Source: an uncultured Flavobacteriales bacterium (GTDB lineage: Bacteria > Bacteroidota > Bacteroidia > CAIKAF01). From it: DNA of 55,145 nucleotides. Position 1 is the stretch's first letter; each line of letters opens with the position of its first letter. Position numbers and translations under genes: made by a program. Shown piece after piece: positions 18,200-54,103 of this stretch. The DNA lies in NCBI GenBank assembly GCA_903837495.1, contig CAILUT010000034.1, positions 1 to 55,145 on the forward strand. Direction: 5' to 3'. The notes under the pieces are model-generated. The model had not been told where the DNA came from and ran no database searches. It worked only from the letters and a program-made list of their open reading frames with translations.

Positions 18200-18360
18200 T
18201 TTTTTGGGCGCCTTTTCCCGCTGTCGCCTGTAGCGGGCTTGCCCTGCCCCAAGGGCCTTGGGCGCTGCGGTGGCTCCCAAGGTCGCCTCCTCGCACCCGG
18301 CCCTTTGGGGGCAGGTCGGCGCCCGCTGCCGGCTCCATCGGGGGCGCGGGCGAACTAAAA
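18200..18360 (+). repeat. GC-rich dispersed repeat, subfamily A, copy 2
   Basis: The segment begins TTTTTTGGGCGCC, contains the core GTGGCTCCCAAGGTCGCCTC, and ends in GGGGGCGCGGGC. The reverse complement of 24661-24830 matches it over its length. It sits immediately downstream of hldD. Internal GC-rich palindromes suggest an RNA or DNA hairpin. Confidence 0.8.
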
Positions 18361-18671: not shown

Positions 18672-20360
18672 ATGAAAAATTTCCTGTTTTTTCTGCTGAT
18701 TGCAAGCACATTAACCTTGAAAAACCTGCATTCGCAGGGGGTTACCATTGGCTCGAACAATCCGCCCGATGCCTCGGCGGTGCTCGATTTGCAATCTACT
18801 CAAAAGGGTTTGCTGCTGCCGCGGCTTACTACTGTTCAGCGCAACGCCATTCAGCTGCCTTCGCGTGCCCTGGTGATTTACAATACAGACAATGAGTGCA
18901 TTGAGGGATATTTTCCGGGCGGCTGGAAGGCCCTGCAATGCGACTGCAACAGCGCTCCGCCGAGTCCTGCCTTGATTTCGGGGCCAACCTTGGCTTGCCC
19001 TGCCGATACCGGTCTGCTGTTTTCGATAGCCCCGGTAACGGGCGCAACCTCTTACCTGTGGACCATTGGCAGTACCGACACCTTGGTTTCGGGCAGCGGA
19101 ACCGATTCGGTGTACATCAATTTAAGCGCTCTGACAGGGCAGCGCAGCATTGCAGTAAGCGCCGTAAATTACTGCGGAACTTCGGCTCCGGCCAGCCTAA
19201 GCCTCAGCGTTTCAGTGCCCGACAGCACCTTTACCGTACAGCCGGGAACGCCCATCATCAACAATGCGGCGCAATTTAACGCAAACCAAGCCAATGCTAT
19301 TTATGCCTGGACCTTTGCTTCGGGAAGCCCGGGGAGTTCAACCGCGCAAAACCCTTCGGTAACCTGGACCCAAACCGGAACCTATGCCGTGCAATTGACG
19401 GTAACCGATGCAAACGGCTGTCAAAGTCAAAACACCGACTCCGTAACCGTAACCAACTGTTCACCGGCCACATGGACCTTCAGCAACTGCGGTCAAACCG
19501 GGCGTACCGGCCCAAGCCAAGCTCAGTGCAATTCCACCTACGGGTCGGGCGTGGTAACGGTATCAAATGGGGTTCAGCTGTGGACGGTACCCGCTACGGG
19601 CAACTACAGCATTCAAGCGGCGGGAGCCGAGGGCGGCGACAAGGGCGATTACCTAAACCAATCGGGAAAGGGCGGCATTGTTTCTGGTAGCGTTTCTTTA
19701 ACTGCCGGAACGGTGTTGGCCATTGTGGTGGGGCAGCGGGGCGGACAGTGTTTGTCGGCAAACAACTCCGGCGGCGGTGGCGGAGGCGGGGGAAGTTATG
19801 TGTACAACAACCAAAGCAATGTACTGTATGTGGCTGCCGGCGGGGGCGGGGGCATTGGAGCTGGGAACAGCACCCGCAAGCCGGGCCGGAATGCTTCTAC
19901 AGCCCAAAGTTCAGGCACCGACCAACAAGACAACAACAACGGCCCAAACAGCTACAGCTATTTTGCCGTTACCGGAAACGGTGGGGGCAGTTATGGACAA
20001 GTTACAGGTCAGGGCGATTACGATTCGGGCGGTGGAGCCGGTTGGAATGGGAATGGAATGAACGGAGTGCAATTCCCCGGCACCGAAGGAGGGCGGTCGC
20101 GGGCCAACGGATTTTTAGGCGGGAATTACGACAACGGCCGAAATCCGTATGTAGCTGTGGGCGGTTTTGGAGGAGGCGGGGGCGCGGCGGATGGGGGTGG
20201 CGGTGGCGGCGGCTACACCGGTGGAAACGGCGGGCGCTGGGCCGGTTTGGCCACCGGGGGCGGGGGCGGAACCTGCTTCGTGGTGGGCAACAACAACCCT
20301 TCTAGCTTGGGGAATCAGTCTGGCCACGGGCAGGTGGTTGTTACCCGGACATGCCCTTGA
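18672..20360 (+). CDS. Secreted PKD protein with ALK/LTK-type glycine-rich domain
   Basis: This 562-residue protein has a signal peptide (MKNFLFFLLIASTLTL...) and a conserved N-terminal module DASAVLDLQSTQKGLLLPRL ... RALVIYNTDNECIEGYFPGGW, found in many Bacteroidota surface proteins. Ig/PKD-like repeats follow (YAWTFASGSPG, TDANGCQSQNTDSV). From about residue 267 there is a long glycine-rich domain beginning WTFSNCGQTGRTGPSQAQCN, then LWTVPATGNYSIQAAGAEGG and runs of glycine. This start matches the glycine-rich domain family also found in animal ALK/LTK receptors. No T9SS sorting tail is visible. It converges with a second glycine-rich protein at 20643-21929 that shares the same N-terminal module. 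Role inferred: surface or matrix protein. Confidence 0.8.
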   Translation: MKNFLFFLLIASTLTLKNLHSQGVTIGSNNPPDASAVLDLQSTQKGLLLPRLTTVQRNAIQLPSRALVIYNTDNECIEGYFPGGWKALQCDCNSAPPSPALISGPTLACPADTGLLFSIAPVTGATSYLWTIGSTDTLVSGSGTDSVYINLSALTGQRSIAVSAVNYCGTSAPASLSLSVSVPDSTFTVQPGTPIINNAAQFNANQANAIYAWTFASGSPGSSTAQNPSVTWTQTGTYAVQLTVTDANGCQSQNTDSVTVTNCSPATWTFSNCGQTGRTGPSQAQCNSTYGSGVVTVSNGVQLWTVPATGNYSIQAAGAEGGDKGDYLNQSGKGGIVSGSVSLTAGTVLAIVVGQRGGQCLSANNSGGGGGGGGSYVYNNQSNVLYVAAGGGGGIGAGNSTRKPGRNASTAQSSGTDQQDNNNGPNSYSYFAVTGNGGGSYGQVTGQGDYDSGGGAGWNGNGMNGVQFPGTEGGRSRANGFLGGNYDNGRNPYVAVGGFGGGGGAADGGGGGGGYTGGNGGRWAGLATGGGGGTCFVVGNNNPSSLGNQSGHGQVVVTRTCP

Positions 20361-20642: not shown

Positions 20643-21929
20643 TTAATACCGAAGAACAACCAGGCCAGAACCACCCGCCCCTCCTGTGCAAGGAGAACCT
20701 TGGCAACCGCCTCCGCCGCCACCTGTATTTGGCTGACCAGCTCCGCCCACCCCATGAGTTATGCAGGTTCCATTCCCGCCACCACCCAAGCCACCTTGAG
20801 GCGGAACATTGCAGGCTCCTGCCCAACCCGCACCACCGCCACCATAAAACTGCTGTGAACCGGTTATTCCGAAAGCCAAGCCATCTCCCCCCTTTCCTCC
20901 GGCGGGTCCAGAATTCCCCGGTGCTGCTGCACCGCCTCCGCCTCCAGCGGAAGAACTCCCCCCGTTGCCCCCGGCATTTCCTTGGCCTGCTTGGCCTGAA
21001 CCACCTGCCGTTCCTGGATGCCCACCTCCGCCTCCGGAACCCCCATTTAAGCCGTTGGAACAGCTGCGACCTGCCCCACCGCCCATGGCCACGACGGTTC
21101 CAAACTGACTGTTTTGCCCATTGTTGTTTGCGCTGCCTCCGGCCCCAACCGCGATTGAAATGGTATTGCCTGAAACCACCAAAAATTGAGCATGATATAG
21201 AACTCCACCGGCGCCACCGCCACCGCCTTCCCAGCCACAGCCTTGACCGTTCCCGCCGCCGCCGCCGCCTGCAACCACCAAAAGTTCAATGGCATTGAGA
21301 CCTTGAGGGACCTGCCATTGGTGACTGCCAACCGAGGTGAACTGAACTACGGTTCCGGCTGTGGTGCGAAAGGTATCTACAGCCCCATAAACGACGCCTG
21401 TGGCGGTTTCTACAAAGGCACGGTAATAATACAAGGTTTGAAAACTCAGGTTTTTCATGGAAACCTGAAAGGCCCCAATTCCTGGACTCACCCCTGCGGT
21501 ATCGGTTAAAATACTGGGATTGGGAAGCGTACTCCAGCAAATTCCTTGGGTTATAATGGGTTGATTTCCCATTTGAACGAGCGTTGCATGAGCGGTAGCC
21601 AAGGTCCCAAAAATTGAGTTTACAGAATCGGTACTGATTTGCGGTAAAACTGGGCAAGGAGAATACCAACCCTCTTGGGGTCCCCGATAAAATTCAAGGC
21701 ATCGGATGTCGGTGTTAAAGATGGTCAAACCCAGGGCAGGATTTAAAATAGCGTTTCTTTGCACAGAGGTTAAGCGGGGAGGCAAAAAGCCGCGGGTAGA
21801 GTCCACCAAATCCAAAATCGCACTGCTGTCAGGCTGTGTATTGCTGGGACTAATGACCACACCTTGTCCGGACAGACCAAAAACCAAAAAGGTAAAAGAA
21901 AAAACAAAGCAGCAAATTCTATTTAACAT
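20643..21929 (-). CDS. Secreted glycine-rich surface protein
   Basis: This 428-residue protein has a signal peptide (MLNRICCFVFSFTFLVFGLSG). Its N-terminal module DSSAILDLVDSTRGFLPPRL ... GLTIFNTDIRCLEFY parallels that of the 18672 gene. The middle is a fibronectin-like stretch (ITQGICWSTLPNPSI, YYYRAFVETATGVVYG). From about residue 205 it is a glycine-rich domain starting TSVGSHQWQVPQGLNAIELLV and then highly glycine-biased to the end GGSGLVVLRY. That ending is complete for glycine-rich domains of this sort, so the gene is not truncated. No T9SS tail is visible. The pair probably arose by duplication and inversion, or was assembled as a surface-protein island. Confidence 0.8.
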   Translation of the reverse strand: MLNRICCFVFSFTFLVFGLSGQGVVISPSNTQPDSSAILDLVDSTRGFLPPRLTSVQRNAILNPALGLTIFNTDIRCLEFYRGPQEGWYSPCPVLPQISTDSVNSIFGTLATAHATLVQMGNQPIITQGICWSTLPNPSILTDTAGVSPGIGAFQVSMKNLSFQTLYYYRAFVETATGVVYGAVDTFRTTAGTVVQFTSVGSHQWQVPQGLNAIELLVVAGGGGGGNGQGCGWEGGGGGAGGVLYHAQFLVVSGNTISIAVGAGGSANNNGQNSQFGTVVAMGGGAGRSCSNGLNGGSGGGGGHPGTAGGSGQAGQGNAGGNGGSSSAGGGGGAAAPGNSGPAGGKGGDGLAFGITGSQQFYGGGGAGWAGACNVPPQGGLGGGGNGTCITHGVGGAGQPNTGGGGGGCQGSPCTGGAGGSGLVVLRY

Positions 21930-22108: not shown

Positions 22109-22156
22109 GGCAAGGGCTTTATGCCTCCTCGTCCCTCGGGGCATTTAGCCCTTGCC
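22109..22156. promoter_or_regulatory. Large hairpin just 3' of the FGE-like variable gene
   Basis: Arms 22109-22125 and 22140-22156 pair at 15 of 17 positions (GGCAAGGGCT / AGCCCTTGCC outer part) around a 14-base loop. It starts about 40 bases after the stop codon of the FGE-like gene. It could be a terminator, although no T-run follows on either strand. It could also be the hairpin that DGR systems keep downstream of their variable region. Confidence 0.5.
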
Positions 22157-22195
22157 ACAACCTCCGGAGCTTAAAGGTCCGAATGGTTCCCGCTG

Positions 22196-22981
22196 TTAAC
22201 TCGGGACGACCAACCGAAAGCCAATGATGTGGTAGCGGCAGGAAGGCTCGCCGTTGCCGCGGTACGCCGAGCGGCAACCCCTGCCGTAGTAGTCCCAGCC
22301 GCCCCCACGCAGAACCCGATTCCCCCCCGATGATGGACCTTCGGGGTTGGTTTGGGCACCGCTGGAATAACCTCCATACCAATCGCTGCACCATTCCCAA
22401 ACATTTCCATGCATGTCGTACAAGCCCCAGGCATTCGGAGCATACGAGCCCACGGGCATGGTTTTTTCAAGGTATGTTCCTGTTGCGCAGGTGGAATAGG
22501 GATAATTGCCATTGTAATTCGCCTGACTGCTGCTTAAACAGCTTCCAGTATTGAAGGGACTTGTGATTCCTGCCCGGCAAGCGTATTCCCATTCCGCTTC
22601 GGTTGGCAGTCGGCAGCCCATCCATTGAGCAAAGTCGTAAGCATCGTACCAACTCACATTAATTACTGGCCGGTTGCCCCTGCCCCAGCCTTCATCGTCG
22701 GGTTTTTGCCGGCCCGTAGCCTCGCAAAATGCGTCGTACTGAGCAAAAGTTACCTCGTGCTTACTCATTTTAAACCCGCTTAAGGTTACCGAATGCTGGG
22801 GGCCTTCAACAGACTCCCTATCAGGTTCGTTTAGTGGACTACCCATAGTAAATGTACCAGCAGGGATATACACCCATTCCAACTCAGGAGGGGTAATATT
22901 ATCTGGGTCAGAACAACACCAATTACCTAATGTTGCAACCCCAAAAAAGGCAAACCAAAAACCATGAATATGTACTTTCAT
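22196..22981 (-). CDS. FGE/SUMF1-like (C-type-lectin fold) putative lipoprotein with DGR-type variable C-terminus
   Basis: The protein has 261 residues, with a hydrophobic N-terminus and CC at 22-23 suggesting lipid attachment, though the lipobox is weak. The fold signature is FGE-sulfatase: WVYIPAGTFTMGSP, KHEVTFAQYDAFC, RPVINVSWYDAYDFAQWMGCRLPTEAEWEYA, GLYDMHGNVWEWCSDWY, RVLRGGGW ... IGFRLV. The first catalytic cysteine of true formylglycine-generating enzyme is absent (WDYY instead), so it is a binding protein rather than an FGE. Residues 226-254 (22199-22306) have NNC codons at nearly every position where related proteins carry Asn (AAC). This is the pattern left by adenine-specific mutagenesis in diversity-generating retroelements. 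No reverse transcriptase or template repeat is seen in this window. Confidence 0.85.
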   Translation of the reverse strand: MKVHIHGFWFAFFGVATLGNWCCSDPDNITPPELEWVYIPAGTFTMGSPLNEPDRESVEGPQHSVTLSGFKMSKHEVTFAQYDAFCEATGRQKPDDEGWGRGNRPVINVSWYDAYDFAQWMGCRLPTEAEWEYACRAGITSPFNTGSCLSSSQANYNGNYPYSTCATGTYLEKTMPVGSYAPNAWGLYDMHGNVWEWCSDWYGGYSSGAQTNPEGPSSGGNRVLRGGGWDYYGRGCRSAYRGNGEPSCRYHIIGFRLVVPS

Positions 22982-23308: not shown

Positions 23309-23317
23309 TAGTAAACG

Positions 23318-23391
23318 TGGGCCCTGTTGGGCTTGAACCAACGACCCTCTGATTATGAGTCAGATGCTCTAACCAACTGAGCTAAGGGCCC
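23318..23391 (-). tRNA. tRNA with CAT anticodon (elongator Met or Ile2)
   Basis: The 74-base cloverleaf has acceptor stem GGGCCCT / AGGGCCC, D-arm TAGCTCAGTTGGTTAGAGC, anticodon loop CTCATAA, T-arm with GGTTCAAGCC and discriminator A. CAT can be methionine or, after lysidine modification, isoleucine AUA. C-G pairs at positions 4-69 and 5-68 lean toward Ile2, but I cannot settle it. No CCA is encoded. Confidence 0.9.
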
Positions 23392-24660: not shown

Positions 24661-24830
24661 GCCCGGGTTTGGCCTGCGCCCCCGATTGAGGCGGCAGGGG
24701 CTGCCGACGCTGCCTATAAGGGCCTGCGCCGAGGAGGCGACCTTGGGAGCCACCGCAGGCGCTTGGCCCTTAGGCAGCGGCAAAGCACCTACAGCCGAAA
24801 GCGGGAATAGGCGCCCAAAAAATAAAAGGG
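24661..24830 (-). repeat. GC-rich dispersed repeat, subfamily A, copy 4 (reverse orientation)
   Basis: The reverse complement starts TTTTTTGGGCGCCTATTCCC, contains GTGGCTCCCAAGGTCGCCTC, and ends in CGGGGGCGCAGGCC. It is nearly collinear with 18200-18360. It fills the interval between the secG 3' end and the EEP gene promoter; nothing else is seen in 24544-24854. Confidence 0.8.
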
Positions 24831-37567: not shown

Positions 37568-37715
37568 GCGGCAGCCGGGCTTTCCGGGCTAGTCCGCACC
37601 TTAAGGCGGGGCAGTGCAGGCCCCAAAGTAGCTCCTAAAGTCGCTCTTTGGGGCGCTTTCTGCCAACCGCCTTAAGTTTTGCGGGCTAGCCTCGTCAATC
37701 CCTGCCGCAAGCCAA
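37561..37715 (+). repeat. GC-rich dispersed repeat, subfamily B, copy 5
   Basis: It starts GGCAGCCGGGCTTTCC, has the core GTAGCTCCTAAAGTCGCTC, and ends CTCGTCAATCCCTGCCGC. It matches 18440-18605 in reverse complement. It lies between the lipoprotein terminator and the tRNA-Ser locus. Confidence 0.8.
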
Positions 37716-48349: not shown

Positions 48350-48520
48350 GCGGGGGTGTTTTTGGGCGGCTGCGGGCTTTCACCGGTTGTCCGCGGTTGC
48401 CCATGGGCTGCCCAGCGGGCTTGCGGGGGCTCCTAAAGTCGCCTCCGCGCCTCGCGGGCAGCACCAGGGCCCCCTTGCGGGCAACCCGGTTCAATCCCTG
48501 CCGCGGGCGGCCTCATTGGT
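48350..48520 (+). repeat. GC-rich dispersed repeat, subfamily B, copy 6
   Basis: It starts GGGCGGCTGCGGGCTTTCA, has the core GGGGCTCCTAAAGTCGCCTC, and ends CAATCCCTGCCGCGGGCGG. Its last 70 bases match 53930-53996 in reverse. It marks the left edge of the AT-rich accessory region. 48204-48349 shows nothing else. Confidence 0.8.
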
Positions 48521-52930: not shown

Positions 52931-53149
52931 CATCTAAACATTTCAATTGTCAACAAATTTAAGGCTGTTGATTCCCATTTCTCCCCAAAAGACAACGTTG
53001 ATAGGCATTGAGGAATATTTTGTTAAATTGATAAACAAAAGGGGAGACCAGAACCCACTTAAGAAAACGGGGCGAAACTGAAAAGCCATATGAGTAAGAC
53101 GAAAAACAACAATAAAATGAAAACATATTCAATAATATCAGAGTAATCA

Positions 53150-53929: not shown

Positions 53930-54103
53930 GGGGGGCAGCGGCAGGGATTGAACCGGGTTGCCCGTAAGGGGGCCCTGGCGCGGTGCTACAGCCCATAGGA
54001 GGAAAATACAGCGGTTTCCCGCTGAAGTGGGATTTTCGAGGTTCCATCCCGCAGGAGCGGGACTGGGCGCTGCGCGCCGAACGAAAGATCAGCTGTTGGC
54101 AGC
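53930..54103 (-). repeat. Fused GC-rich repeat end (copy 7) and cassette junction J4, reverse orientation
   Basis: 53930-53996 in reverse equals the last part of copy 6 (ending CAATCCCTGCCGC). 53992-54103 in reverse equals the first 110 bases of J1. The two meet at CCTATGGG. J4 begins 10 bases after the HigA stop codon, again directly 3' of a gene. Confidence 0.7.

Follow-up and report, generated by a model that had tools for sequence, protein, structure and literature searches.

The window, the whole 55,145-nt stretch of DNA that we analyzed, is contig C34 of the genome of an uncultured Flavobacteriales bacterium (G000; 2.51 Mb in 67 contigs, scored as 100% complete and not closed). Positions 22196..22981 of its minus strand encode a 261-amino-acid protein that we annotate, from Pfam and AlphaFold-model fold matches, as a putative variable protein of the FGE/C-type-lectin fold and target of a diversity-generating retroelement (DGR). 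The product matches the FGE-sulfatase family (PF03781; 8.1e-61, Pfam), and its AlphaFold model (mean pLDDT 70, with the N terminus and residues 143-171 weak) matches formylglycine-generating enzyme (FGE), the Treponema DGR variable protein TvpA (2y3c; Z 22.4), and Mtd of Bordetella phage (Z 13.4-13.8), in agreement with the FGE fold assigned in a preliminary description of this gene. The strength of the sequence and fold matches to FGE would suit a catalytic enzyme with an unremarkable C terminus, but on alignment to human FGE (2aft) the reactive-cysteine segment (residues 336 and 341) maps into the variable region (VR) described below with no aligned cysteines, and this C-terminal segment is hypervariable among the paralogues. 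We consider a catalytic FGE highly improbable and, because of where the cysteine segment maps, a binding role likelier than a catalytic one.

At the N terminus (22894..22981, minus strand), the translation gives a hydrophobic leader with a Cys and acidic residues, a possible secretion or lipoprotein signal. Read by eye (MKVHIHGFWFAFFGVATLGNWCCSDPDN), the leader runs into GNWCC and then SDPDN; a canonical lipobox is absent, with no Gly, Ala, or Ser at position -1. The leader is not common to the paralogues, whose N termini are unrelated. Lipoprotein status is plausible, and we infer that the protein is exported or displayed at the surface and binds variable ligands.

Two genes for glycine-rich, secreted-looking proteins adjoin the target (window positions 18672-20360 and 20643-21929), and G000 encodes a protein similar to them on C24 (L056 7443-10871). 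At 23317-23391, ∼340 bp upstream of the target, lies a tRNA-Met gene, a possible integration site. Intergenic repeats with GCGGCAGGGATTGA-type sequence occur at window positions 18265-18354, 24669-24758, 1-92, 37622-37713, 48461-48504, and 53938-53981; they are 73-95% alike, stand in both orientations, and may represent a small repetitive element of G000. An Rfam DUF805 RNA (RF03081; 74 bits) is located at 53036-53104.

Variable region, gene family, and 3' elements

The VR spans 35 codons from RVLRGGGW to GFR (22214..22318, minus strand), with adenine-derived sites between TGG and ATT, as delimited by alignment with five other VRs and three external templates. The last 41 codons of the gene read CGG GTT CTG CGT GGG GGC GGC TGG GAC TAC TAC GGC AGG GGT TGC CGC TCG GCG TAC CGC GGC AAC GGC GAG CCT TCC TGC CGC TAC CAC ATC ATT GGC TTT CGG TTG GTC GTC CCG AGT TAA and include the GAC, TAC, GGC, TGC, AAC, CAC, and ATC codons singled out in the preliminary description. 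The rewritten sites stop ∼10 codons short of the stop codon.

A protein search found three paralogues in the same genome that share this C-terminal framework, at C6:31529 (83% identity), C6:29210 (76%), and C5:8360 (71%), and a degenerate pattern of the framework with 3 mismatches allowed retrieved exactly four VR copies there (C34, two on C6, and C5). The two C6 genes, C6a and C6b, are nearly identical along part of the gene body. They are arranged in tandem (L057 2866-6222), and the 766-amino-acid ORF of C6b begins inside a repeat (GGGCAGGCGCAAGGCCTG) downstream of C6a. The genome of a sister species, Bacteroidetes MAG K_DeepCast_35m_m2_130 (G001; scored as 99-100% complete), carries two intact VRs, on C10 and C46 (the latter in an FGE gene truncated by the contig end), and one partial or mosaic copy on C53. 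The four G000 genes together with G001 C10 and C46 make up the set of six VRs compared below.

An adenine-free 21-mer (GGCTTTCGGTTGGTCGTCCCG; 22202..22222, minus strand), identical in all seven genes by sequence and alignment, lies at the 3' end of the VR and would be a candidate for the IMH, the site of homing initiation. Positions 22124..22201 (minus strand) comprise the last codon, the stop codon, and a noncoding block of ∼75 nt with potential hairpins, conserved in the seven genes and two species. This block follows every VR at 79-100% identity, with most of the sequence past it differing, and the copy behind C5 has decayed to the 79% end of that range; among six genomes of the genus, matches above chance are located solely behind these FGE genes. 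Because many unmutated A's are present in the block, it lies outside the mutagenized tract. A reading as a structured RNA gained no support: its consensus fold has neither covariation support nor compensatory changes, and it has no Rfam match. Homing in Bordetella phage BPP-1 requires a hairpin directly downstream of its VR, and the block described here may act in cis during homing or serve as a terminator.

Adenine-restricted variation

Scanning the inferred-template pattern across 395 genomes of the class returned a single locus, G170:C58 (L061), a complete DGR with an FGE target, an HRDC-domain accessory protein, a reverse transcriptase (RT) with an IGNLTSQ motif, and a noncoding template. 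A gene for a caspase-domain (Peptidase_C14) protein adjoins that template (L061 4647-6113). Relatives of the window protein in IMG/VR include L083 and L107/L108, in which a DGR-like RT stands beside an FGE gene on contigs classed as viral. Across L061, L083, and L107/L108, 95-100% of template/VR mismatches fall at A (17/17 at L061 in the best gapless window, the VR there having a one-codon deletion), and the three external templates, one bacterial and two viral, align gaplessly and in register with the VRs of the family.

Among the VR copies, the nucleotide framework is almost invariant, and differences are found almost solely at codons derivable from AAC. Every rewritten site is NNC, with all 72 codons (12 sites in six genes) ending in C, compared with a third-position C/(C+T) of 0.50-0.59 in the gene bodies; variation thus sits at the first two codon positions with the third C kept, as the preliminary description had it. 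None of the 37 invariant core columns across the six VRs holds an A. Where all three external templates have A, 23 of 24 columns vary among the six VRs, versus 10 of the 69 columns at which no template has A. The corresponding counts for the three closest G000 VRs are 20/24 and 3/69, and at all 3 exceptions the missing template could have had an A. Fisher tests of the six VRs against each external template gave p values of 5e-13 to 1e-12, which are descriptive, since neither columns nor genes are sampled independently. The same test applied to two non-DGR FGE orthologue families of the genus, the paralogues C63 and C61 with their orthologues, gave p values of 0.91-1.0. We rejected these control genes as DGR targets on that result and on the C61/C17 orthologue pair, in which amino acids over the same region are frozen (40/40 identical) and fourfold sites are varied (7/16 identical).

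Pairwise comparison of C34, C6a, and C6b showed fourfold sites of the VR to be identical at 18/19, 18/18, and 17/18 positions, versus 47/74, 35/65, and 59/78 in the body, so that bodies differing at 24-46% of fourfold sites accompany a framework with essentially no decay. At the amino acid level the same genes are less alike in the VR (26-28/40 identical) than in the body (∼78-88%), and low protein identity combined with frozen silent sites is the pattern expected from repeated copying from one template. The silent sites of the VRs are also nearly identical between G000 and G001, two genomes in which an orthologous FGE gene agrees at 34/67 fourfold sites; this likeness across species could reflect a template that is constrained or shared. 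A few VR changes lack an adenine origin: C5 carries four or five silent ones, G001 C10 has TGG in place of ATT and GCG in place of AGG, and in G001 C46 a TGG has become TGT.

Ordinary diversifying selection and gene conversion among FGE paralogues, with no DGR involved, would fit the placement of the variable residues where FGE/lectin-fold DGR proteins bind ligands, as well as the tracts that paralogues have in common, such as those of C6a and C6b. Selection on amino acids, however, leaves unexplained the uniformly C-ending codons, the A-free invariant core columns, and the match to the adenines of unrelated templates, and gene conversion would homogenize the very codons that differ most, and we therefore give this reading very little credence. 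The adenine pattern, read from a single sequence in the preliminary description, is proven here because paralogues were compared: the variable columns coincide with the adenines of three external templates, as proposed for adenine-directed mutagenesis of an AAC-rich template, and variation in relatives falls almost entirely at adenine-derived positions rather than being spread evenly over all bases.

Search for the retroelement machinery

The absence of an RT, Avd, and template from the window, already recorded in the preliminary description, extends to the whole G000 assembly, and the template copy and DGR RT for which it proposed a genome-wide search were found on none of the 67 contigs despite the 100% completeness score. 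Neither G000 nor G001 yielded a DGR RT to PF00078, to the G170 DGR RT as a protein query, or to the PADLOC RT model. The degenerate pattern (3 mismatches) matched only the four VRs in the G000 assembly, where assembly gaps are possible, and revealed no template repeat. A 99-nt VR DNA query recovered FGE genes and chance-level short matches and no template, the DNA query of G001 was likewise negative for a template, and an unmutated-template pattern had no match in either assembly. Exact patterns of the template or VR had no match in IMG/VR, and a search of phage and plasmid collections with the VR DNA was negative.

Avd was not found in the G000 assembly, where the sole bAvd match (C24:4533-4856) was rejected: it belongs to the 23S rRNA intervening-sequence proteins (PF05635; 9.6e-41), and neither an RT nor a template lies in its vicinity. 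The RTs of two other genus members, G004 and G002, were rejected as DGR enzymes, being a retron-type RT and a DRT UG19 that are not near FGE genes or templates.

Of a complete DGR cassette, the searches thus recovered neither the DGR-type RT nor the template repeat nor Avd from the G000 assembly. As an RT and template did not turn up in these searches, we do not file the family as a complete DGR and describe its members as genes written by one. What the genome does hold is characteristic of an orphan or remote target, a VR near the 3' end of an FGE-fold gene with variation restricted to template adenines; a template in the same genome is needed for a proven active target and not for leftover targets such as those of Treponema denticola. 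The preliminary reading, in which an orphan VR is either served in trans or fossil, holds because the variation is almost entirely confined to adenine-derived positions, though RT and template were not found in the assembly.

Proposed origin and comparison with known DGRs

We conclude, with a probability of about 0.88, that the gene at 22196-22981 (minus strand) belongs to a family of orphan (remote) DGR targets of the FGE fold whose VRs were written by adenine mutagenesis. In the proposed mechanism, a DGR RT would copy an AAC-rich template RNA with misincorporation at adenines, and the resulting cDNA would replace the VR, the last ∼100 bases, by mutagenic retrohoming that keeps the non-adenine framework. 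About a dozen NNC codons for the presumed ligand-facing side of the lectin fold would in this way be randomized at their first two positions. RT and template would operate, or would have operated, in trans from a locus that neither assembly contains, with the ∼75-nt 3' block perhaps guiding homing. The predicted template has the framework CGGGTTCTGCGTGGGGGCAGCTGG and after it a run of AAC-rich codons, among which TGCCGCTCGGC, CCTTCC, and ATTGGCTTTCGG stand in register. The FGE gene on G001 C53 (L038) is a mosaic whose 5' part is unlike the VR framework and whose 3' part equals the inferred unmutated template; its 3' half reads TCC AAC CGC AAC AAC AAC ATT GGC TTT CGG and holds TCCAACCGCAACAACAACATTGGC, an unmutated tract as the template would have, which suggests a short homing tract.

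If a DGR wrote these regions, its machinery is probably present in the cells and unassembled or unbinned, and a place on a phage or a distinct mobile replicon is unlikely. Recent loss is somewhat unlikely. Under that sub-case of the DGR reading, whose likelihood overlaps with that of the reading as a whole, a DGR of the lineage wrote the VRs, its RT and template were then lost, and today the VRs evolve like any ordinary gene. Such a fossil would be in keeping with the missing RT and template in two near-complete assemblies, with the silent framework changes and decayed 3' block of C5, and with the precedent of T. denticola isolates that keep targets without the core (PMC4891356). The framework of C34, C6a, and C6b is nonetheless essentially undecayed beside their divergent bodies, so any loss must be recent, and the framework is intact in G001 too. 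We argue that homing itself was recent, because these three genes are free of silent decay; the C5 VR, by its silent changes and 3' block, looks older. An extrachromosomal RT and template, on a phage, plasmid, or other mobile replicon shared between species and serving the targets in trans, appear distinctly unlikely; if true, such shared machinery would explain near-identical silent VR sites in two species with no machinery found in either genome.

Among known systems, the G170:C58 DGR of the same class shares the C-terminal register of the target, with template AAC at the positions that are variable here, and the N-terminal domain of its target resembles paralogue C6a by eye, but in that DGR the target has the RT, HRDC accessory protein, and template as neighbors, none of which was found in G000. 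The viral L083 and L107/L108 have a similar template framework with AAC triplets in the same register; they differ in lying on contigs classed as viral, in the adjacent RT, and in targets just 44-46% identical to the window protein. BPP-1 is the prototype of adenine-directed retrohoming into the C terminus of a lectin fold, and its Mtd is a fold match to the window protein, but it has a single cis target, a phage tail protein, within a complete cassette with Avd. Another close system is that of T. denticola, whose TvpA likewise combines the FGE/C-type-lectin fold with a C-terminal VR and which has several dispersed targets per genome, and isolates that have targets while lacking both RT and template have been reported (PMC4891356). 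It belongs to another phylum, its template is known from sister isolates whereas ours is only inferred, and many of its targets have predicted lipoprotein signals, whereas the target here has a hydrophobic leader without a canonical lipobox.

Remote variable proteins have been reported in cyanobacteria (PMC7517822) and DGR activity in trans in Thiohalocapsa (PMC10907252), and a global DGR survey states that remote targets are missed, as large surveys look near the RT (PMC8144416). Because RT- and template-less, remote, and trans-served targets have already been reported, we regard the family as a further case of a known phenomenon. It indicates that DGR targets can be recognized by comparison of paralogues alone, without a template or RT, and adds an uncultivated lineage, with G000 encoding at dispersed sites no fewer than four hypervariable proteins that have different N-terminal regions.
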